DNA from: Flavobacteriales bacterium
GTDB lineage: Bacteria; Bacteroidota; Bacteroidia; Flavobacteriales_D; Sanyastnellaceae
NCBI GenBank assembly: GCA_016780385.1
Contig: JADHLY010000013.1
Location: forward strand, 1-41,278
DNA: 41,278 nt
Direction: 5' to 3'
The number at the start of each line of letters is the position of its first letter. Positions within the stretch are counted from its first letter, which is position 1. This document shows, in pieces, positions 2,383-29,984 of this stretch. A program made the translations under genes and the position numbers. Below the pieces are notes generated by a model. It ran no database searches. It was not told the origin of the DNA and saw only the letters and a list, made by a program, of their open reading frames with translations.

Positions 2383-5226
2383 TTACTCGTCGTCTTCATT
2401 GGTGGCATCGTCGTTCATGCCGTCACCCATCGTGTCGTCCCCTTGGTTGTCCGCAGGCTGACCGTCGATCTCATCGGCTTCCAAGCAAGTCTGATACAAG
2501 GTCAAGAATGGAATGAGGTCGAAAGCGGAGTAGCAGGAGTCCGGACCGAAGAAGGGATTGTAGCCTTCCACTCCGGTGGTGTCTTCACCGCATACACCGA
2601 AGAGACACAGCAAGTGTGTCAAGTCGGCTACGGTATAGCAGTAGTCCCCGTTCCAGTCTGGGTTGTATGAAGGGGGGACAATGGCCTCCACTTCGTCACA
2701 GATGCCATCCTCGTCTTCATCATTGATACACGTGCCGTCGCAGTTCAAGTAGAACTCGTCGGGATAGGTGCAGCTGCCGTCTTCGTCGGTGGCGGCAGGA
2801 TTGAAGTTACAGGCCAGTGAATCCTGGCAGCCAGCAATTTCATCCTCGTCACAGACGAGGTCGTCGTCGGCGTCATTGAGGCAGTTGCCGTCACAGTCCA
2901 CATAGTCTTTACCATAGAGGTCAATGGGGTAATCACATGTACCTGCATCCGTGGCAGATGCGTCATAGTTGCACGCATCCTCCTCTTGACACCCAACAAT
3001 CTCGTCCTCGTCGCAGACCAGGTCGTCATCCTCGTCATTCAGGCAATTGCCGTCACAATCAACATTGTCGACGCCATACAAATCAACGGGGTACTCACAG
3101 AGTGAATTGTCCGTATCGGTGGTGGGGTTGCTGTCGTAGTTACAGGCGCTGGGCTCCGTGCAACCGGTGATTTCATCGGCATCACAAACACCATCGTCGT
3201 CCGCATCATTGTCCACGATTATACCATCCACGCAGGTGTCACAAATGCCGTCTACGTAAGTACAGGATCCATCGTTGTCGGTGGCCACTGGATCGTAGTT
3301 ACAGGCCGCAGCGTCATCGCATCCCGGGATTTCATCCTCATCGCAAACGAGGTCTTGGTCCTCGTCATTCAAGCAATTGCCATCACAATCGACATTGTCT
3401 ACCCCGTACAAGTCAATCGGGTACTCACACAAGGAGTTGTCCGTGTCCGTGGTTGGATTGCTGTCGTAGTTACAAGCGCTGGGCTCTGTGCAACCGAGGA
3501 TTTCATCGGCATTGCAGACGCCGTCCTGGTCGTCGTCGTTTGGATTGACGGTGCCGTCAGGGTTGCAGGTCTCACATGGACCGTCTGCTACAGCGCAAGT
3601 GCCGTCATCGATGGTGGCTGTTGCGTCATAGTTGCACGCCGCTGAGTTGGTACAACCAGCACAGCTGAGGTATTCGCAAGAACCGTCATCGTCGGTAGCG
3701 GAATTGTCATAGTTGCACGCGCCTTCATCGTTGCAACCGAGCACCTCGAGCTCGTCACAGACCCCGTCGCCGTCCGTATCATTCAAGCAGTTACCCGCAC
3801 AATCATAGTACTGGTCTGCATAGGTGCAGCTGCCATCGTCATCCGTGGCGTTAGGGCTGTAGTTGCAAGCTGAAGAATCGGTACATCCCTCTGCCTCGAG
3901 TTCGTCGCATGTGCCGTCTTCATCAGCGTCGTTGATGCAGTTGCCCGCGCAGTCATAGTACTGGTCGGGATAAGTACAAGACCCGTCGTTTTCTGTCGCG
4001 CCAACTTCATAGTTGCACGCTGTTTCGTCATCACACCCGGGGACTTCAAGTTCGTCGCACACGCCGTCAGAATCGGTGTCGTTCAAACAGTTTCCGGCGC
4101 AGTCGTAGTACTGGTCGGGATAGGTACAAGACCCGTCGTTCTCCGTGGCCGCTTCTGCATAGTTGCAGGCGGTATCATCGTCACAACCGAGCACTTCGAG
4201 TTCGTCGCACACCCCATCAAAATCGGTGTCGTTCAAACAGTTGCCCGCGCAATCAAGGTACTGATCGGCATAAGTACAGGAGCCATCGTCTTCTGTGGCA
4301 TCACCACTAAAGTTGCAGGCCGTTTCGTCTGTGCAACCGAGCACCTCGTCTTCGTCGCAGACCCCGTCATCATCGGTGTCGTTCAAGCAAACGCCGGCAC
4401 AATCCACATTGGCGGACCCGTAGAGGTCAAGGGGGTATTCACAGCTGCCATCATCCGTTGTGGCCGCCTCATCATAGTTACAGGCGGTTGCATCCGTACA
4501 ACCGGGCAAATCCACCCCTCCGAAGGCAAAGGTCTCGTAGATGTCGTTACCACCGTCGCCATTCGGGAAGATTTGGCAATAGAGCTGACCACTGAGGTCG
4601 CCGTCCGTCGTGAACTGACCGACCAACACTTCCAGATCGTCACCCGCAATGCCATTGGCATCACCATTCAACGCATACCATGCGCCTCCAATGGGGTCAT
4701 CGATGGCAATGTTGCCGCCAGGAAGGCCGCCGCCCGGATCGAAAATGGTGGACCAAGGATTCTCTGAAGACTGCACGGTCGCCACTGTGGCTTCACCAAT
4801 GGCAGCATTGGGAACACCTTCCAATCCAATGGTAACCCAGCTGTCGTAAGCAAGGTCTGGATACACTGCAAAGAGCAAGCTGTTGATGCCATTTGGCGTA
4901 GCAGCACCTAGCACAGCGTGGTAAAATGAAGTGGTGGTGTTGACGAAGGTCGAATTGTTGGAATCGCCAGAGACCGCAGACATGAAATCGTCAGTATTGA
5001 CCATATTGACGTACAAGCGGGTGCAGCTATAGCCCGTCAGGTCCGTAATTCCGAGCGCTCCAACGAGCATTCCAATGTCCTCTGACACGACCACCACTTC
5101 AAGTCCATACCCTTCAGGGGCAGAAGAATTGTTCATGGCGATCTGCTGTTGGGCAGAGAATGAAGAGATGCTGCAAGTCAGGGCAGCAGCGATGGTCAAG
5201 GCGAGCTTGTGAATTTGGTTGCGCAT
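2383..5226 (-). CDS. Secreted Cys/Asp-rich CNYD-repeat protein (947 aa) with degenerate EF-hand-like C-terminus
   Basis: The start ATG at 5226 gives a typical signal peptide (residues 1-25, ending SFSAQ). Residues about 37-240 form a domain I do not recognise, also present twice in the giant repeat protein downstream. Its landmarks are LAYDSWVTIGLEG, GGAWYALNGDANG and GQFTTDGDLSG. From residue 242 to about 846 there are 12 units of the type GCTDxxACNYDxxA...DDGSC, most carrying an extension of the type CAGNCLNDTDxDGVCDE that resembles thrombospondin type 3 calcium-binding loops. Residues about 849-918 hold two degenerate EF-hand/dockerin-like stretches (DWNGDYCYTVADL, then DSCYSAFDL). The protein ends in a roughly 29-residue acidic tail. 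No classical type IX sorting domain is visible. An extracellular, calcium-binding, disulfide-rich structural role is inferred; no enzymatic motif was seen. Confidence 0.85.
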   Translation of the reverse strand: MRNQIHKLALTIAAALTCSISSFSAQQQIAMNNSSAPEGYGLEVVVVSEDIGMLVGALGITDLTGYSCTRLYVNMVNTDDFMSAVSGDSNNSTFVNTTTSFYHAVLGAATPNGINSLLFAVYPDLAYDSWVTIGLEGVPNAAIGEATVATVQSSENPWSTIFDPGGGLPGGNIAIDDPIGGAWYALNGDANGIAGDDLEVLVGQFTTDGDLSGQLYCQIFPNGDGGNDIYETFAFGGVDLPGCTDATACNYDEAATTDDGSCEYPLDLYGSANVDCAGVCLNDTDDDGVCDEDEVLGCTDETACNFSGDATEDDGSCTYADQYLDCAGNCLNDTDFDGVCDELEVLGCDDDTACNYAEAATENDGSCTYPDQYYDCAGNCLNDTDSDGVCDELEVPGCDDETACNYEVGATENDGSCTYPDQYYDCAGNCINDADEDGTCDELEAEGCTDSSACNYSPNATDDDGSCTYADQYYDCAGNCLNDTDGDGVCDELEVLGCNDEGACNYDNSATDDDGSCEYLSCAGCTNSAACNYDATATIDDGTCAVADGPCETCNPDGTVNPNDDDQDGVCNADEILGCTEPSACNYDSNPTTDTDNSLCEYPIDLYGVDNVDCDGNCLNDEDQDLVCDEDEIPGCDDAAACNYDPVATDNDGSCTYVDGICDTCVDGIIVDNDADDDGVCDADEITGCTEPSACNYDSNPTTDTDNSLCEYPVDLYGVDNVDCDGNCLNDEDDDLVCDEDEIVGCQEEDACNYDASATDAGTCDYPIDLYGKDYVDCDGNCLNDADDDLVCDEDEIAGCQDSLACNFNPAATDEDGSCTYPDEFYLNCDGTCINDEDEDGICDEVEAIVPPSYNPDWNGDYCYTVADLTHLLCLFGVCGEDTTGVEGYNPFFGPDSCYSAFDLIPFLTLYQTCLEADEIDGQPADNQGDDTMGDGMNDDATNEDDE
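2689..4503 (-). repeat. Twelve tandem CNYD units coding for residues about 242-846 of the 947-aa protein
   Basis: Twelve tandem protein-coding units, most 50-57 residues long, start at 4503 and run leftward. Each begins with a GC-(T/D/N/Q) motif and has the ACNY/ACNF core and the DGSC-like closing cysteine. Most then carry a second half with CDGNC or CAGNC and a DxDxDGVCDE loop. The third half-type, seen once, is short and ends in LSCA. Units starting at 3495 and 3165 differ at only 3 of 57 residues. Confidence 0.9.
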
Positions 5227-5597
5227 AACAAAGAATTTGGCGCTTACAAGTTATCGAGCCGACCGGGTAAACATGACTGCATGATTTCAACAGCCCCCCC
5301 TAATTAGCCCTATATCTATCCTGTGTTACCGAAGTATTTAGAAAAATAGACAAGCCTATTATTTTTCGTTACGAATGCCCCCTTCAAGGCGGTGCTTTCA
5401 ACACCCGAGCGATGTGCACCTATATAATAAACGGGAGAAACGAAGTGTGTGGCATCCATGCCTGTTCCATTCGGCCCGACCCACCTCAATTGACAAATGT
5501 TGGTTTATGCTGCAGACCATAATCGGTCCACAACCCAGTGCTCAATGTTCAATTTGCAGGCCACCAGAATCATGGCCCAGCAGTCTACCTTCGAAAC
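5227..5597. other. Divergent intergenic region, 371 bp
   Basis: This stretch separates the leftward 947-residue repeat gene from the rightward lectin gene and must hold both promoters. Its centre (about 5300-5370) is clearly AT-richer than the flanks, and there is a near-palindrome TTCGTTACGAA at 5365-5375. I found no pair of boxes matching the Bacteroidota pattern (TTTG, then TAnnTTTG at suitable spacing) well enough to call a promoter. No RNA gene or convincing small reading frame was seen. Confidence 0.5.
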
Positions 5598-7655
5598 ATG
5601 GACAAGTCCCCTTCCATGCTTTGGCTCGCGCGCTGCATCATGGTCTGCTGTTTTTGGCAGACTGCTTTGATGTGGGGCCAAGATCAAGTCTATTACCTGA
5701 ACGGCAATGCCCTCAATACGGGAGAGGACTGCTATCAGCTGACGACGAATTCAGTTTTTCAGGTGGGCAGCGTGTGGTACGCTGACCAAGTGGACCTAAG
5801 CCAGCCCTTAGACCTGCAATTCGTCCTCAACCTCGGGAACAGCGACCAAGGAGCTGACGGCATCTGTTTTGTGCTTCAGACCGTGGGCGTCAATGCCTTG
5901 GGAGATGCAGGAGGCGGACTGGGGTTTCTCGGCACGGACTTCCTCCCCTCTTTTGCCGTCGAGTTTGACACTTACCAAAACGGCGATTATGGTGACCCAA
6001 TTGGTGACCACATCGCCATGGTCTCCAACGGCAATGTCGACCATACGGCGGGTACAGCGATTGCGGGCCCTGTTCAGGCGGATGCCTTCGATCCGAACAT
6101 CGAAGACGGCGAAGACCACCAAGGAAGGGTGACCTGGGATCCGGTCGACCAGGTCGTCCGCGTCTATTTTGACTGCGAGCTCCGGCTCGAAGGCTTCATC
6201 GACCTGGTGGATGACATTTTCGAGGGCCAGAACCAAGTGTTCTTTGGCTTCACCGCAGGCACAGGTGGGCAGGTCAACGTGCAAACGGTCTGTCTGGAAG
6301 AGAACATCCTCGGCAGCGCTGAGCAGAGCTTCATTTGTCCGGGAACTGAATTGCAGTTGAACGTCCCGAGCCCAGATGGCACAGCCACGTGGAGTCCCGG
6401 CGTCTATCTCGACGATTCGCTGTCGGCATCGCCCGTGGTCACCCCGCCAGATGGCCTCACCGACCCCTTGACTTATGTGGCGCAGTATCTGGACCAATGC
6501 GGTGCCGATGTCACCGATACGATTCAGCTCAATGTGGAGGTCATGACCGCTGAGGTCCTCGGAGTGACCAACCTGACCTGCGAGAACACGGCTTTGACAC
6601 TCAACGCGGTCAGCAATTTCCCTGGCCCACTGGACTTCAATTGGTCTGCAGAATCGGGAAGCATCACCGGCAATGGCGGGCTCGCCGAATTGGATGAGGC
6701 GGGCAGCTATACATTGCTCGTGTCCTTTCAGGATGGACTGTGCGAGGCGGCAGCCTCTTTTGTGGTTGGATTGGATACCGCCTCCTATACGGGGGACTTC
6801 CCGGAGGCCGCCTTCTTGACCTGTGACGCGCCCACTGTCGTTTTGGAAGGGTCAGGGTTCTCCTCGGCGTCAGCGGTGGTTTCTTGGTCTACCACGTTTG
6901 GCGAGATCCTCGGTGCCGGACCCCAAGTGACGGCATTGGCCGAAGGCGCGTATATCGCCACGGTGACCAATCCCAGCAATGGGTGCACGCGGGCGTATAC
7001 CGTGGAGGTATCCGACGCCAGTGCCCCACCTGATCTCTTCGCCGGCAACGTGCCCCCCCTCACCTGCCTCAACCCTGGCCAACCTGTTGTCGGTGCCAGT
7101 ATTGCGCCTTACGCCCCCTTCGGCGGAAACGGCCTCACCCCTTCCGTCTCTTGGACCAATACCTTTGACGGCACCACCAACGGTGTGTCTCCGTCCAGCG
7201 GCTCCCTGGGGCCCATCATCAATGCGGCAGGGACTTACCAGCTGGTGGTCGAATGGCAGGAAACCGGATGCGCGGACAGCGCCACTGTGACCGTCTTCGA
7301 AGGAGAGGATTTCGGCGTGGACATCAGTTCCATCACCTTCCCCAACATCCTGACTGCCGACAACAACGGGAAAAACGACAGCTGGTATCCGTTTTTGGAG
7401 GACCAGCCAGATGTGGAGGCGTTGGCGGTACTCACCAATTACGCCTTGCGGGTCTACAACCGATGGGGGCAAGTGGTCTATTCCAATTCAGGGGACGGAT
7501 TTGCCTCAGGAACCCCCATACGTTGGTATGGCAATGGCAACGATGGCGACCCCCTCGCACCGGGCACATACTGGTACGTTGTCGACTACACGTCGACATG
7601 CGGCAACAGCCAATCCGGAACAGACCAAGGACCACTGAAAGTCATGCGCCGCTGA
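5598..7655 (+). CDS. Secreted L-type lectin-domain protein with gliding/T9SS type B C-terminal domain
   Basis: The reading frame is open from 5538, but the ATG at 5598 is preferred because it places a signal peptide (hydrophobic stretch LWLARCIMVCCFW, ending MWGQ) at the N-terminus, giving 685 residues. Residues about 28-240 resemble the bacterial legume-type lectin fold, with VEFDTYQNGDYGDPIGDHI and a later FGFTAGTGG strand. Ig-like or PKD-like beta modules follow (about 250-580). The last 100 residues match the gliding-motility C-terminal (CHU_C, T9SS type B) pattern, with FPNILTADNNGKNDSW, LRVYNRWGQVVY and APGTYWYVVDY. It is therefore expected to be exported by type IX secretion and to act at the cell surface or outside, probably binding glycans. 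It lies between two CNYD-repeat genes on the other strand but carries no CNYD unit itself. Confidence 0.85.
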   Translation: MDKSPSMLWLARCIMVCCFWQTALMWGQDQVYYLNGNALNTGEDCYQLTTNSVFQVGSVWYADQVDLSQPLDLQFVLNLGNSDQGADGICFVLQTVGVNALGDAGGGLGFLGTDFLPSFAVEFDTYQNGDYGDPIGDHIAMVSNGNVDHTAGTAIAGPVQADAFDPNIEDGEDHQGRVTWDPVDQVVRVYFDCELRLEGFIDLVDDIFEGQNQVFFGFTAGTGGQVNVQTVCLEENILGSAEQSFICPGTELQLNVPSPDGTATWSPGVYLDDSLSASPVVTPPDGLTDPLTYVAQYLDQCGADVTDTIQLNVEVMTAEVLGVTNLTCENTALTLNAVSNFPGPLDFNWSAESGSITGNGGLAELDEAGSYTLLVSFQDGLCEAAASFVVGLDTASYTGDFPEAAFLTCDAPTVVLEGSGFSSASAVVSWSTTFGEILGAGPQVTALAEGAYIATVTNPSNGCTRAYTVEVSDASAPPDLFAGNVPPLTCLNPGQPVVGASIAPYAPFGGNGLTPSVSWTNTFDGTTNGVSPSSGSLGPIINAAGTYQLVVEWQETGCADSATVTVFEGEDFGVDISSITFPNILTADNNGKNDSWYPFLEDQPDVEALAVLTNYALRVYNRWGQVVYSNSGDGFASGTPIRWYGNGNDGDPLAPGTYWYVVDYTSTCGNSQSGTDQGPLKVMRR

Positions 7656-7731: not shown

Positions 7732-10700
7732 TTACTCTGCGCAGTTGGAGTCAAACACGACCAAGAAGTCGAGCAAGTCCGCTATACCGATCACGCCGTC
7801 ACCGGTGAGGTCGCCAGGGCAGTCATCTCCGCCGCCCGAATTGTCAAACAAGCAACTGCCGTTTTCCTGCGTCGCTTCAGCGTCGTAGTTGAGCGCATCG
7901 ACATAGGTGCAGCCCAAGCAGCTCGAGAGGTCACAAGACCCGTCGTTTTGCGTTGCAGCAGGATTGTAGTTGCAGGCCGAAGGCACCGTGCACCCGCCAC
8001 AACTGTCGAAGTCGCAGCTGCCATCGTCATCTGTGGCCAACGGCTCGTAATTACAGGCACCCGAACTGGTACAGCCTTCAATCTCGAGCTCGTCGCACAC
8101 ACCGTCGCCGTCGGCATCGTTGACGCAGTCTCCATCGCATGCGTACAGCAGGCCAACCGGGAACACGCAACTCGCATCGGCCAAGGTGGCCGCAGGATCA
8201 TAGTTGCACGCGCCAGGGGTCGTGCAACCCGCGCAACTCTCATACTCACAAGTGCCATCGGACTGGGTCGCGGTGTTGTCAAAATTGCAGGCCGTAGCAT
8301 CGAGACAGCCTAGGCAGCTCAAGGTCTCACAGGAGCCATCGTCGAAGGTCGCATTTGGATTGAAATTGCAGGCACCTGAAGCCGTACAACCGGTCACTTC
8401 AGTCGGATCACACAGACCATTCTGATTGTCATCCTCCAGGCAATTCCCATCGCAGTCCACGAAGGCACTGGCTGGGAAGCTGCAACTGCCATCATCTTGC
8501 GTCGCCGCATCATCATAGTTACAGGCCGCGCCATTGGTGCAACCTGCACATGTGATGTAGTCACAGCTGCCGTCATTGATCACCGCGTCATCCTCATAGT
8601 TGCAGGCATTGAAGTCTGTACATCCAGCGCAGCTCGTGCTTTCGCAACTCCCATCATCGAGTGTGGCATCTGCATCATAGTTGCAGGCAAACGGGCTGGT
8701 ACACCCTTCGGACTCTTCTTCGTCACACAAGCCATTCTCATTGCTGTCGTTCAAACAATTGCCATCGCAATCCACAAACGCGCTGCCTGGATAGGTGCAG
8801 GTGTTGGTCGAAATCGTCGCACTTGCGTCATAGTTGCAGGCCTGAGCATCCGTGCACCCATCGCAAGACGTATAGTCACAGCCTCCATCGTTCAAGGTGG
8901 CGTCAGCATCATAGTTGCACGCTGAGACGTCCGTACATCCGCTGCAGCTTTCGGTCTCGCAGCTGCCATCATCGCTCGTGGCATCCGCATCATAGTTGCA
9001 GCTGAGTGGCTCGGTGCAACCCGGTACTTCTTCCTCGTCGCATACCCCGTCACCATCGGTGTCATTGAGGCATTCGCCATCACAATCGACATAATCGACA
9101 CCGTAGTAGTCCTCCGGATAGAAACAGGTGGTCGCCAACGTGGCATCCGCATCGTAGTTGCAAGCCCCAGGAGTCAAGCATCCCGCACAAGAGGAGAACT
9201 CACAAGGGTTGACCGTATCCCCGAAGTTGCAGGCAAACGGCAAATCACAACCCGTCAGCTGGCCGGCCATCATCCCCGCCATGCCATAGGTGCAGCCATA
9301 GATGAGGACGGGATCCACTGAGGGGTCGTAATTGGTTGCCGCAGGATCTCCGCAGCAGGAGTAGAAATCACAGCTATTGTCATCCACCAGGGCGGTGGGA
9401 TCGTAGTTGCACGCAATGGTCACCGTGCATCCAGCACAAGAGCTGTATTCACACGAACCATCATCGGTCTCGGCGTCTTGGTCAAAATTGCAAGCTCCCA
9501 GTGATGTACAACCTTGGAGCCCCGCGTATTCGCACAAGGTGGCGTCATTGAAGTTCGCATCGGGGTTATACGTGAGCGCAGCCTCATCCGTACAACCAAT
9601 GATGATACAGCTTCCATCGTCTTGGGTCGCATCGGGATCGTAGTTGACCGCGTCGGGATTCAAACAGCCCTTGCAACTGAACAGGTCACAGCTTCCGTCG
9701 TCAAAAGTGAAGCCCGGCTCATAGTTGCAGGCAGCTGGGTTCAAGCAACCGTAGCAGCTTTCTGTCTCGCAGGTGCCGTCATCCACGGTGGCTTCGGAAT
9801 CGAAGTTGCACGCAAACTGGTTGGTACATCCCAAGTAGAAGCAGGAGCCATCACTGTAGTCGGCGTCGGCATCATAGTTGTCGGCCTCGGAGTCCGTGCA
9901 TCCTGTAAAGAGGCAGCTGCCATCATCCAAAGTGGCATCTTCGTCGTAGTTGATCGCATCGGCATCGGTGCATCCGCGACAGCTGAGCAGATCGCAACTG
10001 TTGTCGTTGATGGTCGCCGTGGGGTCATAATTGCAGGCCACACTGTACGTGCAACCATAGCAGGAGGTCAGGTCACATGTACCGTCATCCACATTGGCTC
10101 CGTCGTCGTAATTGCACGCTGTAGGGTCGGTACAACCGAGGAATTCACAGCTGCCGTCATTGAGGTCTGCACCTTCATCGTAGTTGTCCGCCAACGGGTT
10201 CGTGCACCCCTCGTAGAGACAGGTCCCATCATCTTGGGTGGCGTCCTCATCGTAGTTGACAGCGTTTGCATCGGTACAACCGCGGCAAGACGTAAAGTCG
10301 CAAGAATAGTCGCTGACCTCAGCCTCCTCATCGTAGTTACAAGCGGTAGGGTTGATGCATCCATAGCAAGAGAAGTCGCAGCTGCCATCATCGGCGTTGG
10401 CCACAGCAGCATAGTTACATGCCGCGACATCGGTACAGCCTACAATCGAGCAGGAACCGTCGTCTACATCGGCGTCAGCGTCATAGTTCTGGGCTGTCGG
10501 ATTGGTACACCCCGCCAACAAGCAACTGCCGTTGTCGATGGTGGCCGTGGGGTCATAGTTGATGGCGTTACCATCCGTGCAGCCGAGACAGCTGAAGAAA
10601 TCACAGGACCCGTTGTTGACGTCAGCCTCTGGATTGTAGTTACACGCCGAGGCTTCAGTACATCCAAAGATGTTGTCCGTGTCGCAGATGCCGTCTCCGT

Positions 10701-13572
10701 TCAAATCGGTGGGGCAATCACCGCCGCAATTGCCCAAGGCATCCTCGACCGCGCAACTGCCATCGTCGTCCGTAGCTGCTGGATCGTAATTGCATGACGT
10801 GAGGTTGGTGCACCCTGGCACCTCTGCATTGTCGCACACGCCATCCATGTCAATGTCACTGGGACAGTCTCCACCGCAGACCCCGAGGGCGTCTTCCTGG
10901 TTGCCTGCACAGTCACAAGCACCCGCTGGAATGTCCGCGCAGCCACAGTCATACACGGCGCCAGGGCCATTGCAAATGCCACAGGCATCCAATGCACCTA
11001 CGCAATCGTCTACGTCGTCGCAAATGCCGTCATCGTCGGCGTCAGCAGTACAATCTCCGCCGCAGATGCCGAGGGCGTCTTCTGCGTTTCCTGCACAGTC
11101 ACAAGCGCCCGTCGGAATATCGGTGCAACCACAGTCGTACACGGCGCCAGGGCCGTTGCAAATGCCGCAGGCATCCAACGCACCCACGCAATCGTCTACG
11201 TCGTCACAAATGCCGTCATCGTCAGCGTCAGCAGTGCAATCACCACCGCACACCCCGAGGGCATCGGCCTGGTTTCCATCACAGTCACAGTCCCCGGCTG
11301 AAATACCTGACCCACCACATACACCGCACTCGTCGGGGTATGTGCACGTGCCGTCATTGTCGGTGGCCGCAGCATCATAGTTGCAGGCCGTCTCATCGTC
11401 ACAACCCTGCACCTCGTCCTCATCGCAAATGTCATCGCCGTCTGCGTCATTGACACAGTCGCCTGCACAGTCGAGCAAATCAGACTCGGGATAGGTACAG
11501 GCGGGATTGCCGGTATCGGCCGTACAGTTTCCTCCGATGGGCAGGTTCAACGTGATGAAGTTGATGTTGTCTCCCTCTGGGAAGACCTGAATGTTCATGT
11601 TGCCACTGACCTGACCGTCCGTGGTGAATTGTGCAAGGAGCACGGTGCCGTCCGTATCGGGGTATCCATTGGCATCGCCGTTGAGGATGTACCATACGCC
11701 ACCGACTTCATCGTCGATCAGGATGTTGCCGCCAGGGGCGCCAAAGCCAGGCTCGAATTGCAATGCCCAATTCTGACTTGGAGAGTTGACCAGGGAAGCG
11801 GCATTCTCGCCGTCAGCGGAACTCGCCGGCCCATCCAATCCAATCGTCACCCAGCTGTCGTATGCAAGGGCTGGGAATGCCGGAAGGAGCAGCGGATTGA
11901 CGTTTTCCGGTGTTGTCCCGCCCAACGCATCTTGATAGAAAGACGTGGTGGTTTGCACTGAAAGCGGCTCGTTGATGTTGCCATAGACTGACGTCACGAA
12001 ATCCGTAGGGTTCTCTGCATGGAGCAGCACCCGATATGTGGTCATCCCCGCCAAAACGCCATCGGCATGTTCTGCGACGGTGCGCAATTCAAGACAATAC
12101 CCGTCGTCCACGGTCGGGGGCGTGTAGGGCAAGGCGTTGGGATCGTAGTTGCATGCCTCAGGATCGTCGCACGTTTGTTCCTCTGTGTCGTCGCACACGC
12201 CATTTTCATTGACATCGGCTGTACAGTTGCCACCGCACACGCCGAGGGCATCAAGGGTGTTGCCGTCGCAATCACATGCCCCATTGGGCAAATCAGTACA
12301 ACCGCAAGCATAGATCGCTCCTGGCCCGTTGCACACACCGCAGGCATCCTCTGAGCCAATGCAACCGTCCACATCGTCGCAAATGCCGTCAGCATCGGTA
12401 TCGGCTGTGCAGCCACCGCCGCACACCCCTACTGCATCCAATTGGTTGCCATCGCAGTCACAGTCTCCGGGTGGCAATGCTTCGCACCCGCAATCACCGG
12501 TGGCACCTGGACCATTGCACACTCCGCATTCGTCCAATTGGCCGATGCACTCGTCTACGTCGTCACAAATGCCATCGGCATCAGCATCAGCGGTACAATC
12601 GCCGCCGCACACACCAGCGGCGTCCAACTGATTGCCTGCGCAATCACAAGCGCCTGCCGGTAGATCGGAACATCCACATGCGTAGATGTCTCCTGGGCCG
12701 TTGCAAACACCACAAGCGTCCAACGCACCCAAGCACTCATCAATGTCATCGCAAATGCCATCTTCGTCTGCATCGTCCGTGCAATCGCCACCGCAATTGC
12801 CCAGCGCATCGTCATACAGACAACTGTCATTTCCACCGCCGGTAGAACAGTTCACATCCAAACCAAAGGGCAGGGTCAACAGCAGAAAATTGATGTTGTC
12901 TCCCTCGGGAAACACTTGGACATTCAAGGTGCCGGATAGGTCACCATCCGTCGTGAATTGCCCCACCAACACCCGTCCATCGGCATCGGGATAACCATTG
13001 GCATCACCATTGAGGATGTACCACACGCCGCCGACGGCGTCATCGATGACGATGTCGCCGCCCGGGGCGCCATTGCCCGGATCAAATTGCAGGGACCAAT
13101 TCTGACCGGGTGAGTTCACCACCGAAGCGGCATTTTCTCCAAGATTGGGGTCTGCGGGGCCATCCAAGCCAATGGTGACCCAACTGTCATATGCCAAGCC
13201 TGGGAAACTCGGCAGCAGCAGCGGGTTGATGTTTTGTGGCGTGACGCCCCCCAGAATGTGTTGGGTGAAAATGGTGGTGGTCGACACCGTCAAAGGCGTA
13301 TTCTGATTGCCAGAGACCGATGTCACAAAGTCCGTTGCATTCAGGGTCTGGACATACACTCGGTAGGTCGTCTGACCGGCCAGGACGCCAGAAGTGTGTG
13401 CGGTCACCACCTCGGTGAAGAGGCAGTAATCGGTTAACGGCTCATCCACAATAGGGTCGGCGAGCGGGTCGTAGTTACAAGCCAAGGGGTCACCACAGTC
13501 CTGGGCTGTGGCGATGGTTACAGTGCCAACAAAGGCCAGCAGCAAACACAACAATCGGTTCAAATTGTGCAT
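7732..13572 (-). CDS. Giant secreted CNYD-repeat protein (about 1946 aa) with a terminal dockerin-like motif
   Basis: The frame is open from 13647, but the ATG at 13572 is chosen because a clean signal peptide begins there (hydrophobic LLCLLLAFVG, cleavage after about residue 24). Order of parts: a lone CNYD unit; a roughly 200-residue unrecognised domain (about 47-241); a thrombospondin type 3-like block with ICDDVDECIG and CGVCNGPG motifs (about 247-461); another CNYD unit; a second copy of the 200-residue domain (about 487-684); a second thrombospondin-like block (about 700-914); then a long CNYD array to about residue 1910. I count roughly 36 CNYD units in all. The final 31 residues hold a single dockerin/EF-hand-like loop (DLTGDGVIGIADLLDFL). 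No enzymatic motif or T9SS sorting domain was seen. The very high Cys and Asp content suggests a disulfide-bonded, calcium-loaded extracellular fibre or adhesin; this is inference. Confidence 0.85.
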   Translation of the reverse strand: MHNLNRLLCLLLAFVGTVTIATAQDCGDPLACNYDPLADPIVDEPLTDYCLFTEVVTAHTSGVLAGQTTYRVYVQTLNATDFVTSVSGNQNTPLTVSTTTIFTQHILGGVTPQNINPLLLPSFPGLAYDSWVTIGLDGPADPNLGENAASVVNSPGQNWSLQFDPGNGAPGGDIVIDDAVGGVWYILNGDANGYPDADGRVLVGQFTTDGDLSGTLNVQVFPEGDNINFLLLTLPFGLDVNCSTGGGNDSCLYDDALGNCGGDCTDDADEDGICDDIDECLGALDACGVCNGPGDIYACGCSDLPAGACDCAGNQLDAAGVCGGDCTADADADGICDDVDECIGQLDECGVCNGPGATGDCGCEALPPGDCDCDGNQLDAVGVCGGGCTADTDADGICDDVDGCIGSEDACGVCNGPGAIYACGCTDLPNGACDCDGNTLDALGVCGGNCTADVNENGVCDDTEEQTCDDPEACNYDPNALPYTPPTVDDGYCLELRTVAEHADGVLAGMTTYRVLLHAENPTDFVTSVYGNINEPLSVQTTTSFYQDALGGTTPENVNPLLLPAFPALAYDSWVTIGLDGPASSADGENAASLVNSPSQNWALQFEPGFGAPGGNILIDDEVGGVWYILNGDANGYPDTDGTVLLAQFTTDGQVSGNMNIQVFPEGDNINFITLNLPIGGNCTADTGNPACTYPESDLLDCAGDCVNDADGDDICDEDEVQGCDDETACNYDAAATDNDGTCTYPDECGVCGGSGISAGDCDCDGNQADALGVCGGDCTADADDDGICDDVDDCVGALDACGICNGPGAVYDCGCTDIPTGACDCAGNAEDALGICGGDCTADADDDGICDDVDDCVGALDACGICNGPGAVYDCGCADIPAGACDCAGNQEDALGVCGGDCPSDIDMDGVCDNAEVPGCTNLTSCNYDPAATDDDGSCAVEDALGNCGGDCPTDLNGDGICDTDNIFGCTEASACNYNPEADVNNGSCDFFSCLGCTDGNAINYDPTATIDNGSCLLAGCTNPTAQNYDADADVDDGSCSIVGCTDVAACNYAAVANADDGSCDFSCYGCINPTACNYDEEAEVSDYSCDFTSCRGCTDANAVNYDEDATQDDGTCLYEGCTNPLADNYDEGADLNDGSCEFLGCTDPTACNYDDGANVDDGTCDLTSCYGCTYSVACNYDPTATINDNSCDLLSCRGCTDADAINYDEDATLDDGSCLFTGCTDSEADNYDADADYSDGSCFYLGCTNQFACNFDSEATVDDGTCETESCYGCLNPAACNYEPGFTFDDGSCDLFSCKGCLNPDAVNYDPDATQDDGSCIIIGCTDEAALTYNPDANFNDATLCEYAGLQGCTSLGACNFDQDAETDDGSCEYSSCAGCTVTIACNYDPTALVDDNSCDFYSCCGDPAATNYDPSVDPVLIYGCTYGMAGMMAGQLTGCDLPFACNFGDTVNPCEFSSCAGCLTPGACNYDADATLATTCFYPEDYYGVDYVDCDGECLNDTDGDGVCDEEEVPGCTEPLSCNYDADATSDDGSCETESCSGCTDVSACNYDADATLNDGGCDYTSCDGCTDAQACNYDASATISTNTCTYPGSAFVDCDGNCLNDSNENGLCDEEESEGCTSPFACNYDADATLDDGSCESTSCAGCTDFNACNYEDDAVINDGSCDYITCAGCTNGAACNYDDAATQDDGSCSFPASAFVDCDGNCLEDDNQNGLCDPTEVTGCTASGACNFNPNATFDDGSCETLSCLGCLDATACNFDNTATQSDGTCEYESCAGCTTPGACNYDPAATLADASCVFPVGLLYACDGDCVNDADGDGVCDELEIEGCTSSGACNYEPLATDDDGSCDFDSCGGCTVPSACNYNPAATQNDGSCDLSSCLGCTYVDALNYDAEATQENGSCLFDNSGGGDDCPGDLTGDGVIGIADLLDFLVVFDSNCAE
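7915..9183 (-). repeat. Four tandem copies of a three-unit CNYD block
   Basis: Twelve consecutive CNYD units in the giant protein alternate as one long unit (51-54 residues, with a CDGNCLND-type extension) followed by two short 27-residue units ending in SC plus one residue. The long-short-short pattern repeats four times, with block lengths of 108, 105, 105 and 105 residues. The lengths sum exactly to the 1269 bp of this interval. Confidence 0.9.
9433..10665 (-). repeat. Four tandem copies of a four-unit CNYD block
   Basis: Sixteen consecutive short units cycle through four types. These are an ACNY unit ending in SCL/SCR/SCK; a unit whose ACNY is replaced by AINY or AVNY and that lacks the SC tail; a unit with AQNY, ADNY or ALTY; and an ACNY/ACNF unit ending in SCY or SCA. 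The cycle repeats four times with block lengths of 101, 102, 102 and 106 residues, summing exactly to 1233 bp. Confidence 0.9.
10894..11265 (-). repeat. 186-bp coding tandem duplication (thrombospondin type 3-like)
   Basis: Two adjacent 62-residue copies (11265-11080 and 11079-10894) differ at only 4 residues. Each carries DALG(V/I)CGGDC, ICDDVDDCVGALDACG and CNGPGAVYDCGC. The duplication lies within the second thrombospondin type 3-like block of the giant protein. Confidence 0.88.
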
Positions 13573-13622
13573 CAGAATTTGGATAGTTCCCTGAAGATAC
13601 GGGCATTCCCTGCTTTTGTTTC

Positions 13623-13647
13623 CAAATTCAGGAATGACATTCGTCAA
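13623..13647 (-). promoter_or_regulatory. Possible promoter elements for the giant repeat gene
   Basis: On the minus strand TGAATTTG (13630-13623) matches five of the six fixed bases of the Bacteroidota -7 element TAnnTTTG. A TTG lies upstream at 13647-13645, but the 14-base spacing is shorter than the usual 17-19. The region lies between the ligA stop codon and the start of the giant gene. This is a weak call. Confidence 0.25.
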
Positions 13648-23127: not shown

Positions 23128-23294
23128 GATGTGAGGAAAGGAAAAGTACTGGTTTTTGTGGGGTTCCCGTGGTGAATTGCCCCCCCGTTTTCCACATGCT
23201 TACCGATACTTTCCCATCGACAATGACAAATCTCATGCCCCAGCAGCCCCCTGTTGGGTGCCCATGCGAAGCAAAATCGACGCTATCTTGTTGT

Positions 23295-25808
23295 ATGGAC
23301 ATGCCTTACCACCGTTTCAGCACCTTACTTATCGTACCTGCCATCTTGATGATGACCGCATCCGAAGCAGTCGGTCAGTGGCACCAAACCGCTCCAATGA
23401 CCAAGGATGCAAGGTGGGAAAGCGGACAGGCAAACCGTCCACAATCCCGGCAAACCATCGACGCAGCTCGGGCAGTGGCTTACGACCACGCTATGCTGTC
23501 CACAGTGCTGGATGGAGCGCCTGCAGAATGGGACCCCACGACGGGAAACGGCAGGACACTGGACCAGAGCACTTGTAGACTGACCTTGCCCGTTACCGCC
23601 GGCAATGATCGGGGGTGGGAAGCCCATCCATTCAGGGCGGTGCGCTCGGATGTGATGGCCCCCGAGCTGACGGCCAAGTACCCCGAAATCAGCAGCTACA
23701 TCGTCCAATCAGAGCGCAACAGCCTCATCTTCGGCAGGATTGACCTGAGCCCCCGGGGCTTTCACGGCATCCTGCATACCCCGAATGGCACGGTCTACAT
23801 CGACCCGTGGAATGTGGGCGAATATGACCAACTCATGGTCTACACACGTGCTGAATTCATGGCCGCCACAGACAAGCGCCGCCTGGACTGCGACGTGCGC
23901 ACCATGGGCGTAGGCAAGGGCGAAGAAGCCCACGGCTCGGGCCGCCTCGACGATGGCAAAATCACCCAGCGTGTGGGTCCACCTTATGGTCAGACCCGCA
24001 GAAACTACTCGCTGGCGCTCGCCTGTACTGGAGAGTACGGGCAGTACCACGGCGGCAACGTTACTTCTGTGCTCGCCGCGATGAACACCTCCATCAACCG
24101 GATGAACAGCATCGCCGAACCCGAGCTGGCGATTCGCCTGACCTTGATTCCCGACAACGACGAACTCATCTTCCTCAATGGCGCCACGGACCCCTACACC
24201 AACAACAATGTGGGGGCCATGCTTTCCCAGAACCAAAGCACGATTGACGACATCATCGGATTCAACGGATACGACATCGGTCACGTATTCGGGACGGGTG
24301 GCGGGGGCGTCGCCTACCTCGGTTCGGTCTGCACCAGCCTCAAGGCGGGCGGTGTGACGGGATTGCCCTCCCCGGTCGGGGACGCTTTTGACGTCGACTA
24401 CGTCGCCCATGAGATGGGCCACCAATTCGGCTGCAACCACACCTTCAACAACTCCTGCAGTGGCAACCGCTCGGCCTCCGCGGCTTACGAGCCCGGAAGC
24501 GGCTCCACCATCATGAGCTACAGCGGCATCTGCGCCCCCAACCTGCAGACGTATTCCGACGACGTGTACCACGTCCACAGCTTGATCGAAGGCACCGACT
24601 ACTTGCACAGCGGTTTCGGCAACAGCTGTTCCACCCAAATCACCAGTGGCAACTCTGCGCCAACGGTGTCCGTGGGCAGCAGTGGATTCAGCATCCCCAA
24701 GGAAACGCCCTTTGAGCTCACCGCCACGGCCAGTGACCCCAACCCGAGCAATGTCTTGACCTACAGTTGGGAACAGTACAACCTCGGTCCCTCCACCACG
24801 GTTGGGGACAACAACCTCGACAACCCATCGGGCAACGCCCCATGTGTGCGCTCATTCGCGCCGGTCGCTTCACCCACGCGGGTCATCCCGAAGCCAGACA
24901 AACTCCTCAACAACCAGGTGTCTTTTGGAGAACACCTGCCGGACTACAACCGGACAATGACCTTTAAGTGCACAGTCCGCGACAACAACCCCACTTGCGG
25001 TGGTGTCGCGGTCGCCACTAAGACTTTTTTCATCGATGCCAGTACCGGACCGTTTGTGGTCACCTACCCCAACACCAACATCTCCCGCCCTGGCAATTCT
25101 GACCTCGACGTCCTGTGGAGTGTAGCCGGCACTGATGGCGGCAATGTCAATTGCGCTGAAGTGGACATCTACTTGAGCACCGATGGTGGATACTCCTGGC
25201 CTTACATGTTGGCAGACGGCGTCCCCAACACGGGAGAAGCCACCGTATTGCTGCCGGCTGTGGCCACGTCCAGCGCCCGGATCAAGGTCAAAGGCCACGG
25301 ATCGGTCTTCTTCGATGTCAGCAATGCCAACTTCACAATAACAGCAGCGCTGGGCTGCACCGACCCCACAGCTTGCAACTACATGGAGTTTGCGGCCATC
25401 GACGACGGATCGTGCGTGGAGCCCGACCTCCTCTATGCCGATGCAGACGGTGATGGCTTCGGAAATGCCGCGGTGAACACCACCGGATGTGAAAACGACC
25501 TCATCGGATACGTCACAAACGCAACCGATTGCGATGATTCCCGTAATGACGTCTATCCTGGCGCGCCAGGGACGCAGGATGGCGTCGACAACGATTGCAG
25601 CGGAGGCCCACTCTCTCCAGAAGAAGAGAGCGATTGCCCCGGAGACCTTGATGACAATGGTCTTGTGAACGTCAATGACATCCTCCTGCTCCTCGGCGAG
25701 TTTGGATGCGCCACGGATTGTACGTTCGATTTGAACGGCATTCCCGGCGTGGATGTGGCGGACTTCCTGATTCTCCTCGGAGCGTTTGGACTGCCCTGTT
25801 CGAATTGA
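23295..25808 (+). CDS. Secreted metzincin metalloprotease (reprolysin-like) with CNYD, MopE-like and dockerin-like C-terminus
   Basis: The frame is open from 23169, but the ATG at 23295 (or the one at 23301) gives a signal peptide ([13 protein letters not shown], ending AVGQ) and about 838 residues. Residues 25-250 look like a propeptide. The catalytic zinc site [11 protein letters not shown] (372-382) matches HExxHxxGxxH, and TIMSYSG with Met407 is the Met-turn, so it is a zinc endopeptidase of the metzincin clan. Fibronectin/Ig-like beta modules follow (about 455-680). Then come one CNYD unit ([14 protein letters not shown]), a MopE-like metal-binding stretch (DADGDGFGN ... [14 protein letters not shown]), and two dockerin-like loops ([12 protein letters not shown] and [12 protein letters not shown]) each followed by a LLGxFG helix. 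No T9SS sorting domain was seen. It lies 39 bp upstream of the beta-propeller gene and may be co-transcribed with it. Confidence 0.88.
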
Positions 25809-25847: not shown

Positions 25848-28800
25848 ATGCCCCGCGCAACCCTCCAAACAGCCCCCGTGCTGCACGCCCGTCTCGGGTG
25901 GTGGAAGGTGCTGCCTGCCCTGTTCCTCATGGCGGCGGTGTCGCTGGCGCACGCGCAGGCGCAGGAGACTGACCACTGGAGCGTGGGCATGCGCGACGGC
26001 AGTGTGGCGCTGGACTCAGTCGTTGAACAGTTCAATGCCGCCTCCCTCGAACCCGGTAGCCGCAGCAAGGGATTCAAGCCTTTCCAACGCTGGCTGGACT
26101 TCATGGGGCCGCGGGTGGATGCTGAAGGGATGCGCCCACCCAATGCCGTGGTACAGCGGGCTTTGCAGCGCGCAGAGGAAGACAGGCTTGCAGAATCAAA
26201 CCAACGCAGTATTTCCGACCCGGAGTGGGCCTATGCCGGACCATTGGGCCCCACCGGCCTCGGTGGAAACGGAAGGCTCAACCGCTTGGTCGCCCGACAG
26301 GATGCCTTGGAAGAATGGTGGGCCTGCGCGCCCTCTGGCGGCCTCTGGCGCACCACCGATAGCGGAGCAGCCTGGACGCCCATGGGCACGGACCAACTGG
26401 GCTCAATCGGTGTTTCCGACATCGCCTTCCATCCATTCGACGCAGACCAGATGTGGATCGCAACGGGGGACGGCGATTATGGCGACACCCGCTCCATCGG
26501 CATCCTCAAAAGCAATGACGGTGGCGGCTCTTGGGAAGAGACAGGATTGGATTGGGGCGCCCACATGGGCCGCACCTTGACCCGCATCTTGGTCCACCCC
26601 CAGCATCCCGATACGCTGTGGACCAGCTCCAGCCTGGGCATCTACCGCAGCATCAATGGCGGAGACAATTGGATCCGCACGCTGACCGGTGACTATGCCT
26701 CATTGGAACTCGATCCGGCAGATCCCGCCCACTTGCTCGCCGGGGCCTTTGGCAACAACGTCGCCGAGAGCTTCGATGCCGGAGCCACTTGGACGGTCAA
26801 CAGCCTCGACGGCACTTCTTTCGGCCTGAGCCGCATCGCATTGGCCTTTGCCCCTTCTGCGCCCGACACGGTGTACGCCGTAGCGGGCAAAAACAGCGAC
26901 CAAGGCTTTGCTGGTTTCTGGAGGAGCACGGACGGCGGATCGACATGGTCGGCCCAAATGCTGGACGGCGATGGCCCCAACCTGTTGGGGTGGACCGTCG
27001 GAGGTGAGGATTCCGGAGGCCAAGCCTGGTATGACCTGACCTTGGCCGTTCACCCCGAAGACCCGGACCGCGTGCACCTCGGCGGCATCAACTTGTGGGG
27101 CACTTTTGACGGAGGGACTTCCTGGGCGTGTGAAGGCCATTGGTATGCCGGGGGCGCCTTGCCCTACCTCCATGCCGACCAACACGGGCTGCAGTATTTG
27201 GAAGACGGCAGGCTGCTCGTCGCCAATGATGGCGGCGCTTTTGTGTTTGACCCTGAGGGAGGGACTGCCGAAGACATGAGCGCGGGGTTGGCCATCACGC
27301 AGGCCTACCGGGTGGACCTCGATCCGCAATCCATAGACCGCTTCATTGTCGGCACCCAAGACAACGGCACCTTCATGAAGCATGAGGGCAGCTGGGAGCA
27401 CGTCCTTGGCGGTGATGGGTTTCAATGCGCCTTTCACGGTGCCCTCTCGGAGCTCGTCTACGCTTCCCTGTACTATGGTCAGGTCTTTCGATCGGACGAC
27501 GGCGGCAATGCCTTTCAAGAAATTGCGGGAAATGCGGGCAGTGACGAGGATGGCCAAGGCGCTTGGCTCACCCCTTGGGAGGTCAGCCCCTTCAACCCCG
27601 ACTGGATTTACATGGCCAAGGACAGGGTCTATCGCTCCACCAACCGCGGAACGGATTGGGCGGCGCTTGAAGTGCTGCCGGGTGGCCCGTGTACCGACTT
27701 GGCCTTGGCCCCGAGCGACATCAGCCGCATCTATGCCGTCAAGGAGTACGAGCTCTTCCGCTCAACAGATGGCCAGACCTTTTCAGAGCTCGACCCCCCG
27801 AACGCTTTTTCCTGGATTTCCGACGTGTTGGTCTCCCCAGAAGACGCAGACCACCTGTGGATCAGCCTGTCCAACTACAACGACTCGACCAAGGTCTTGG
27901 AGAGCCAGGATGGTGGGGTGAACTGGACCAATGTCAGTGAAGGCCTGCCCCCTGCCCCTGTCAACTGCCTGACGACAGACCGGGAAACCGGCGCCCTGTA
28001 TGCAGGAACCGATGTCGGGGTGTATGCACTGAGCAGCGCGGTGGGCGCCCAATGGGAGCGGCTTTCGACCGGCCTGCCCAACGTGGTCGTCTCCGACATG
28101 CTGGTTCACGCACCTTCTGGACGCCTCATCGCCAGCACGTACGGCAGGGGATTGTATACCCTTGAACTGCCGTCTCCTCCCGAAAAGGATGCCGCTTTGG
28201 GCCGCATGCTTTCTCCGCGGGGCGCCACCTGTGAGGCCGCGCCGGAAATTGTCGTTCCGGTCATCAACCTCGGCACCACCGACATCCACCAATTGCACCT
28301 GCAATACGGGTATTTCGGCGGACAATCGGCGGACACCGTGTGGAACGGCACCATTGCACCGGGTGACAGCGCCCACCTGTACCTCACCCCGCTGGAGCAG
28401 CCCGGAGGGTGGGCCGACCTGTCCGTGATCATCTCGTCGGTCGACGGCAGCGCCGACGCGCGCACCTCCAACAACACAAGGGCCACGCAGGTGCTGCACA
28501 TCGAGGGCGGCACTGAAGTGGTCTTGACCTTTGCCTCAGACTGCTTCGGTTCGCAAAATGGTTGGCTGTTCAAGGACCCGATGGGACGTGTGCTCTACCG
28601 CAGCGGATGGCTGCCTGCCCTTTCCACGGTTTCGGACACGCTGTGCCTCCCGCAAGACTGCATCACTTTTGAGGTGCACCGTGACCAACTCAGCGGTTAC
28701 GAGAGCCTGATGGCGGACTGCGCCACAGGGCTCGACTTCAGCTTGACCGCACTCGGTGATGACGCTCCCTTTCTCTCGGCGCCATCCACCGAAGTTGAAG

Positions 28801-29984
28801 GTGAGTATGCCCTCTGTCTTTCCGACCTGGATGGCGGTGGATGCAAGGACCCCTATGCGGTCAACTTTGACCCGAATGCCGTGTTCGACGATGGTTCTTG
28901 TGAGCCGACGTGCTACCCCTTGGCCATCCACATCCAACCCGACTGTGCGCCCGAAGAAACGAGCTGGAGCTTAAGCCCGGGCGGACTTTCCATCGCCGCA
29001 GGTGGGGTCCCGCAAGGCGGCCAGACGTGGAACCTCTGCCTCGATGCCGGCTGCAGGATGTTTCAAATCCAGGACCTCTCAGCCAATGGTTGGACTCCCT
29101 GCCCAGAATTCGGGGCATCCGTCACCTTGACCTGCCTCGGCGATACCCTGTTCCACCAATTCAACCCCAACTTCAGCAGCGTGCTCCAGAGTGAGGTATG
29201 CCTTCCACCTGTGGCCCACGCGGGCTGCATGTTGCCCTCGGCCTGCAACTTCGACCCGCTCGCCGATGGGCCTGCGGCATGCGATTTCTCTTGCTATGGT
29301 TGCACCGACAGCCTCGCGTGCAACTTTGACCCCGCCGCCACGCTGGGAGACGGCTCCTGCATCGCCACTTCCGGCTGCACCCATCCGGCGGCCTGCAACT
29401 TCGACCTGTTCGCGCTCTGTGACGATGGCTCGTGTGCGTTCCCAGAAGAGGGACTCGACTGCTCTGGAAATTGTCTCGGCGGCGATGCCGATGGCGATGG
29501 GGTCTGTGACGGCGATGAATTCTCCGGGTGTACGCACCCCGATGCCTGCAACTTCCTCGCCGGTGCTACCGAAGATGACAACAGCTGTTTCTTCCCGACG
29601 CTGGCATGGCCAGATGCCGACGGAGACGGCTATGGAGACGATACCCCTGGGACCGCTCAAGGCTTCTGCGGCGTGCCCCCGCCAGGCTGGGTCACCAACG
29701 CCGACGACTGCCATGACGGCGACGCCAACTTCTACCCACAAGCACCGCTGGCACCACTCGGTGGTGATGTCAATTGCGACGGCTTCGTCTCCGGCGCTGA
29801 GCTCGCGCCGTGTTCCAGCGACATCAACCAAGACGGCATCACGGCGATTGACGACCTGCTCGGGTTGCTCAGCGAATTCGGTTGTAACACAGACTGTACG
29901 CAGGATGTCGACGGCAATGGCCTCGTTTCGAGTGCGGACCTGCTGGTCTTGTTGGCGGCTTTTGGCATGGAGTGCGATCCATGA
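25848..29984 (+). CDS. Secreted Asp-box (VPS10/sortilin-like) beta-propeller protein with CNYD, MopE-like and dockerin-like C-terminus
   Basis: 1378 residues, with a signal peptide ending AHAQAQ (cleavage near residue 38). Residues about 145-775 contain about nine Asp-box motifs (TTDSGAAW, SNDGGGSW, SINGGDNW, STDGGSTW, TFDGGTSW, SDDGGNAF, STNRGTDW, SQDGGVNW and similar), the mark of BNR/VPS10-type beta-propellers also found in GH74 enzymes. No catalytic assignment is possible. A CARDB-like beta domain follows (about 782-886). After it come two divergent modules with DC-x-SW/GW and paired cysteines (about 890-1000 and 1020-1120), one CNYD-like unit between them and four after them, a MopE-like segment (DADGDGYGDDTPG ... 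DDCHDGDANFYP), and a dockerin-like pair (DINQDGITAIDD and DVDGNGLVSSAD). It shares its C-terminal architecture with the upstream metalloprotease. pepD starts 36 bp downstream with no terminator between. Confidence 0.86.
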   Translation: MPRATLQTAPVLHARLGWWKVLPALFLMAAVSLAHAQAQETDHWSVGMRDGSVALDSVVEQFNAASLEPGSRSKGFKPFQRWLDFMGPRVDAEGMRPPNAVVQRALQRAEEDRLAESNQRSISDPEWAYAGPLGPTGLGGNGRLNRLVARQDALEEWWACAPSGGLWRTTDSGAAWTPMGTDQLGSIGVSDIAFHPFDADQMWIATGDGDYGDTRSIGILKSNDGGGSWEETGLDWGAHMGRTLTRILVHPQHPDTLWTSSSLGIYRSINGGDNWIRTLTGDYASLELDPADPAHLLAGAFGNNVAESFDAGATWTVNSLDGTSFGLSRIALAFAPSAPDTVYAVAGKNSDQGFAGFWRSTDGGSTWSAQMLDGDGPNLLGWTVGGEDSGGQAWYDLTLAVHPEDPDRVHLGGINLWGTFDGGTSWACEGHWYAGGALPYLHADQHGLQYLEDGRLLVANDGGAFVFDPEGGTAEDMSAGLAITQAYRVDLDPQSIDRFIVGTQDNGTFMKHEGSWEHVLGGDGFQCAFHGALSELVYASLYYGQVFRSDDGGNAFQEIAGNAGSDEDGQGAWLTPWEVSPFNPDWIYMAKDRVYRSTNRGTDWAALEVLPGGPCTDLALAPSDISRIYAVKEYELFRSTDGQTFSELDPPNAFSWISDVLVSPEDADHLWISLSNYNDSTKVLESQDGGVNWTNVSEGLPPAPVNCLTTDRETGALYAGTDVGVYALSSAVGAQWERLSTGLPNVVVSDMLVHAPSGRLIASTYGRGLYTLELPSPPEKDAALGRMLSPRGATCEAAPEIVVPVINLGTTDIHQLHLQYGYFGGQSADTVWNGTIAPGDSAHLYLTPLEQPGGWADLSVIISSVDGSADARTSNNTRATQVLHIEGGTEVVLTFASDCFGSQNGWLFKDPMGRVLYRSGWLPALSTVSDTLCLPQDCITFEVHRDQLSGYESLMADCATGLDFSLTALGDDAPFLSAPSTEVEGEYALCLSDLDGGGCKDPYAVNFDPNAVFDDGSCEPTCYPLAIHIQPDCAPEETSWSLSPGGLSIAAGGVPQGGQTWNLCLDAGCRMFQIQDLSANGWTPCPEFGASVTLTCLGDTLFHQFNPNFSSVLQSEVCLPPVAHAGCMLPSACNFDPLADGPAACDFSCYGCTDSLACNFDPAATLGDGSCIATSGCTHPAACNFDLFALCDDGSCAFPEEGLDCSGNCLGGDADGDGVCDGDEFSGCTHPDACNFLAGATEDDNSCFFPTLAWPDADGDGYGDDTPGTAQGFCGVPPPGWVTNADDCHDGDANFYPQAPLAPLGGDVNCDGFVSGAELAPCSSDINQDGITAIDDLLGLLSEFGCNTDCTQDVDGNGLVSSADLLVLLAAFGMECDP

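Follow-up and report, generated by a model that had tools for sequence, protein, structure and literature searches.

Domain copies and carrier proteins in the window

The window analyzed here, a stretch of 41,278 nucleotides from a Flavobacteriales bacterium (contig JADHLY010000013.1), encodes three copies of a domain of ~190 residues, which we call the YDSWVTIG domain, in two proteins on the minus strand. Copy C (4519-5112) is N-terminal in carrier 1, a 947-aa protein (ORF 2383-5226, minus strand) in which a signal peptide-like N-terminus and the domain are followed by CNYD/TSP3-like Cys-/Asp-rich repeats, a degenerate dockerin-like tail (13 bits against the dockerin profile) and an acidic end. 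Carrier 2 (7732-13647, minus strand) contains copy A near its N-terminus (12844-13434) and copy B internally (11530-12102), along with TSP3-like and CNYD arrays and a single-F-hand dockerin-like tail. The TTG start listed for this ORF is doubtful, as an ATG at 13572 precedes what reads as a typical signal peptide (MHNLNRLLCLLLAFVGTVTIATAQ). At the opposite end, the half-dockerin C-terminal tail (DDCPGDLTGDGVIGIADLLDFLVVFDSNCAE; 7735-7827, minus strand) scored 23 bits against a two-F-hand tail profile built without it.

The original prediction placed three copies of this domain near 5115-4510, 13430-12850 and 12110-11520, which agrees with the positions we found, and the motifs it gave, i.e., LAYDSWVTIGL(D/E)G, GG(V/A)WY(I/A)LNGDANG, (G/A)QFTTDG(D/Q)(L/V)SG and FP(E/N)GD, are exact. 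Protein alignment showed copies A and B to be 71% identical, and copy C to be 47-51% identical to either of them. When the window's own genome was searched at the protein level with copy A, copy B was returned at E 2e-89 and copy C at E 1e-52, which excludes a chance likeness between the three. The placement proposed for the copies needs one correction: copies A and C are N-terminal, both close behind the signal peptide (with one CNYD unit preceding copy A), and copy B is internal and located between a thrombospondin-like array and CNYD arrays.

The CNYD repeats (GCTDPxACNYDxxATxDDGSC) and TSP3-like arrays (2383-4510 and 7828-11520, minus strand) matched no Pfam or NCBIfam model in either window protein, and the CNYD repeat seems to represent a separate family that has no name. 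Adjoining the domain carriers, and on the plus strand, is a gene encoding an L-type lectin domain protein (5538-7655; PF18483, E 8e-43) that bears a type IX secretion signal of the CHU_C type.

A protein search identified 29 copies of the YDSWVTIG domain in the window's own genome (1.86 Mb in 71 contigs, 83.6% complete), with E values from 5e-132 to 1e-4, and with five copies present in a single 4415-aa ORF. In the loci of relatives we found 179 domain copies in 99 ORFs, with individual carriers holding 1-5 copies. The first copy begins within 100 residues of the start in 87 of 90 carrier ORFs with a complete 5′ end, and further copies are interspersed. Of 57 carriers from relatives with a complete 3′ end, 36 have a T9SS type A sorting domain (PF18962/TIGR04183) as their tail, 17 have a dockerin-like tail, four have neither and none has both; the tails of both carriers in the window are dockerin-like and not of the T9SS type A kind. 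Many domain-carrier tails consist of a single F-hand only. A contrast drawn by eye between half dockerin tails on carriers and full ones on enzymes was dropped; detection favours full tails. Other parts of the carriers include SprB repeats, a fasciclin domain, HYR_4C, TSP3 and EF-hand-like repeats. These parts, together with the T9SS and dockerin-like tails, lead us to infer that the carriers are secreted and surface-displayed proteins, with both the export route and the surface location read from tails and signal peptides.

Two further features of these carriers were apparent. A second recurrent and unannotated module, FxLGxGANNxNxDxxGxxxWFxWxG, occurs downstream of the domain in T9SS-tailed carriers at several loci (L017, L026 [G000:C42, C40], L083 and L085). 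Apparent orthologues of carrier 2 (7732-13647) at three loci (L038, L039 and L044) have three domain copies as opposed to two, i.e., domain copy number varies among close relatives.

Family identity and taxonomic distribution

The original prediction described the domain as unrecognised, and our searches of Pfam-A, NCBIfam, PHROGs and the sequences of the PDB bore this out, as none gave a match that we consider credible. Each of 25 aligned copies returned nothing beyond chance from Pfam-A, NCBIfam and PHROGs, and a profile of 126 sequences (A3) had no match among PDB sequences, where another profile (A1) had returned one match at E 0.22. Family scans of each individual copy gave SSURE (E 0.005), SET7_N (E 0.008) and 4PPT_Npt (E 0.004), all of which we regard as chance matches. 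The cohesin family PF00963 was absent from the scans of the 25 copies, and from the window's genome at E<=1. Alignment of the A3 profile to a profile of three CipA cohesins with hhalign, the first of these an exact match to a PDB sequence, gave a probability of 0.1%, the CipA profile being a narrow one (type I cohesins from one organism). A literature search for the motif text of the domain found nothing, nor did one for the phrase “GC-type dockerin”. The YDSWVTIG domain is an unnamed, lineage-specific domain family, and what is known already is its kind of fold and its kind of carrier protein.

Profile searches demonstrated that the domain is present in 112 of the 114 genomes of the host family, covering all 21 genera, and in 152 of the 399 genomes of the order, where positives outside the host family come mainly from one further family, whose diverged copies retain the motif. 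In a sample of 395 genomes from the phylum there were three positives, all within this order. The highest copy number, from uncapped counts, is 44, in a 2.5-Mb genome of a relative. Named matches are nearly all to metagenome-assembled genomes of Flavobacteriales/Crocinitomicaceae, and more diverged copies occur in a few other Flavobacteriales families. Searches of phages, plasmids and viral contigs gave no domain match, so a mobile or viral origin is unsupported.

One contig labelled “Euryarchaeota archaeon SP189” (L064; PBNL01000005.1) also encodes this otherwise Flavobacteriales-specific domain, and as its best profile E value equals that of a host-family genome, an error in either the archaeal label or the binning is likely. 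Several neighbouring ORFs from another Flavobacteriales family (G121:C3, 4356-15521; L117, L120 and L122) encode diverged copies in which the central insertion is larger.

Predicted fold and structural neighbours

An AlphaFold2 model of copy B (modelled as 11521-12111, with 126 sequences) had a mean pLDDT of 96.8 and a pTM of 0.92, and a second model, of a short copy with 39% identity to copy B, had values of 94.3 and 0.89. Both models are beta-sandwiches. In the copy B model, strands at residues 6-14, 24-31, 38-44 and 50-54 are followed by a conserved insertion with short helices, and then by strands at 130-132, 138-141, 156-164, 168-177 and 186-191; the insertion carries the YDSWVTIG motif and, before the later strands, GGxWYxLNG. 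Five residues (D85, G91, F119, G137 and Q161, in the numbering of modelled copy B) are invariant in the 126 sequences, and a further nine (S86, T89, I90, W140, V157, L158, T163, T164 and G166) are nearly so. The suggestion that the copies represent a conserved module is therefore upheld, by a confident predicted fold and by these five invariant residues, although the conserved residues could be mostly structural.

Foldseek found no strong match in the PDB for either model (best E 2.4e-3 and 2.6e-3), and a viral fold library gave no match (best E 5.5e-3, TM 0.25). Using VIA-align 2, we observed that cohesins account for 30 and 23 of the 50 matches listed for the two models, as counted by hand, with MSCRAMM/Als-type adhesins the next group. 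For example, copy B aligned to the cohesin 5nrm with Z 5.7 (118 residues, 3.6 A), and the short copy aligned to Als9-2 with Z 6.5 (123 residues, 3.6 A), to the cohesin 2vo8 with Z 6.5 (125 residues, 4.3 A), and to the GspB, ACE and CNA adhesins with Z 5-6. With this program a Z below 8 may reflect merely a common arrangement, and the highest Z here is 6.5; we therefore use “cohesin/adhesin-like sandwich” as a label, and claim membership in neither group. There is precedent for divergent cohesins visible only by AlphaFold2, with a rule of TM>0.5 normalised to 140 residues (PMC11557425), a value that the TM of 0.3-0.4 to cohesins in Foldseek's own alignments does not reach. In the models, then, the YDSWVTIG domain resembles an Ig-like beta-sandwich of the cohesin/MSCRAMM-adhesin kind, with weak structural scores.

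Like the type I and type II cohesins of cellulosomes (PF00963), the YDSWVTIG domain is predicted to form an Ig-like beta-sandwich, in which the main strands would follow the same order across 118-136 aligned residues; it also occurs in multiple copies on large extracellular proteins, and dockerin-type modules are present in the same genome. Unlike cohesins, the YDSWVTIG domain has ~50 extra residues in its conserved insertion, and it gave no profile similarity to the narrow set of CipA cohesins, in a genome where PF00963 itself has no match and with structural Z scores of at most 6.5. The N-terminal domains of MSCRAMM/Als adhesins (CNA, FnBPA, UafA, GspB and Als9-2) have a sandwich that the predicted fold resembles, with Z up to 6.5 (Als9-2), and also N-terminal display on long surface proteins, but they differ in anchoring, belong to an unrelated group of organisms and have no detected sequence similarity to the domain.

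Dockerin tails and the role of the domain

The window also encodes two enzyme-like proteins on the plus strand with two-F-hand, GC-type dockerin tails: a reprolysin-like metalloprotease (23169-25808; PF13583, E 3e-32; tail ~25635-25799) and a sortilin/VPS10-BNR-type protein (25848-29984; PF15902, E 3e-16; tail ~29811-29975). Both tails score 18-21 bits, below the cut-off of the GC-type dockerin model (NF041540), and it is possible, as a hypothesis, that these two proteins are ligands of the YDSWVTIG domain through their tails. NF041540 has 26 matches at E<=1 in the window's genome, three of them above the curated cut-off of 29 bits, and these tails are C-terminal; elsewhere in the genome they occur on trypsin-like, endonuclease I, beta-lactamase-fold, haloperoxidase-like, lysyl oxidase and alpha/beta-hydrolase proteins. 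About 20 genes beyond the two in the window (L141-L156) contribute to this large set of secreted enzymes with such tails, in a genome that has no recognisable cohesin. Searched against the PDB, the tail profile gave a dockerin (2y3n_B, E 9e-8) as its top match, followed by EF-hand proteins. The likeness to GC-type dockerins, where C-terminal tails of co-encoded enzymes match the model and some exceed its cut-off, bears on a possible partner and not on the YDSWVTIG domain itself.

Based on these findings, the YDSWVTIG domain is probably a binding module specific to a lineage of marine Flavobacteriales, displayed outside the cell on their surface proteins. Carriers would be exported by a signal peptide and end in either a T9SS sorting domain or a dockerin-like tail, the Asp/Cys-rich CNYD and TSP3-like repeats, which probably bind calcium, would space the domain copies apart, and the domain itself would most likely bind a protein or other surface partner, contributing to assembly or attachment of the cell's outer protein coat. 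The structural neighbours count towards a binding role, since cohesins and MSCRAMM/Als adhesins are both binding modules of extracellular proteins; against this, a Z of at most 6.5 in the model comparisons may reflect just a common arrangement. The original prediction saw a functional head domain carried by a stalk of repeats. This role as a head is plausible, and in almost every carrier the first copy is indeed N-terminal, but numerous carriers have 2-5 copies distributed among their repeat arrays, an arrangement closer to a scaffold of several modules than to one head.

What the module binds can be read in more than one way. It is a distinct possibility, though one we would put short of even, that it is an adhesin for an external ligand, recognising glycans or proteins displayed by algae, particles or other cells, with the dockerin-like tails simply replacing the T9SS domain as a signal for sorting or anchoring. 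MSCRAMM/Als adhesins rank high in the list of structural neighbours, SprB, fasciclin and HYR-type domains are found on carriers, the two tail types are mutually exclusive there as expected of interchangeable signals, and the domain persists in genera without dockerins; adhesion alone does not, however, explain the joint rise of domain and dockerin numbers or the need for up to 44 copies.

A narrower form of the binding-module explanation, which we offer as tentative, is a cohesin-dockerin-like scaffold. In this version the modules would be divergent cohesins into which secreted enzymes dock by their GC-type dockerin tails, carriers with several copies (for example, the 4415-aa protein and its five modules) would be scaffoldins, and T9SS-tailed carriers would be surface anchors. 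Cohesins outnumber every other group among the structural neighbours, the 26 dockerin matches lie on proteases, a nuclease, a lysyl oxidase, a haloperoxidase-like protein and hydrolases in a genome without PF00963, and the top PDB match of the tail profile is a dockerin. When medians for the 21 genera are compared, domain and dockerin counts are correlated (rho 0.61, p 0.003), and no correlation is seen between domain counts and T9SS tails (rho -0.30, p 0.18); some of these counts are lower bounds, and phylogeny is uncorrected in both tests. In addition, 97 of the 100 dockerin-positive genomes of the order contain the domain, and dockerin tails are rare in the remainder of the phylum. There is also a precedent in the “planctosome” proposed for freshwater Planctomycetes (PMC6461901), where cohesin and non-cellulosomal dockerin modules occur alongside reprolysin_4 proteases and repeats of the TSP3 and HYR types; cohesins were recognised there, whereas the candidate receptor here is an unnamed family and the host is a member of the Bacteroidota with a T9SS. 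Against the scaffold, the domain occurs without any dockerin match at E<=1e-3 in genera g3, g6 and g11 and in about half of the genomes of g9, g12 and g13, which argues against an obligate domain-dockerin pair; the Foldseek TM and profile comparisons with cohesins tell against it as well, and carriers are themselves often dockerin-like-tailed.

That the domain is instead a partnerless structural spacer, a stable folded unit lengthening repeat proteins, is improbable: its invariant residues are largely Gly, Asp and aromatic, i.e., possible core or turn positions, its copies are interspersed with repeats and its copy number differs between orthologues, but the N-terminal preference and the long conserved insertion are unexpected for a mere spacer.

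Returning to the binding-module reading, we have here a nameless domain present in nearly all sampled members of a marine family, with as many as 44 copies in one genome. Should it prove to be an adhesin and nothing more, many giant “hypothetical” surface proteins could still be annotated. Dockerin binding, if shown, would raise the interest of the domain greatly; a true receptor for the dockerin tails of co-encoded exoenzymes would explain the surface retention of secreted enzymes and would give the GC-type dockerins of this group a testable partner. In its fullest form, which we regard as doubtful, the YDSWVTIG module would found a new cohesin-like receptor family that, with GC-type dockerin tails, keeps exoenzymes, among them proteases, nucleases and oxidases, attached to a scaffold displayed through the T9SS. 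Were this true, it would represent a cellulosome-like system in ocean Bacteroidota, and one that is not directed at cellulose.
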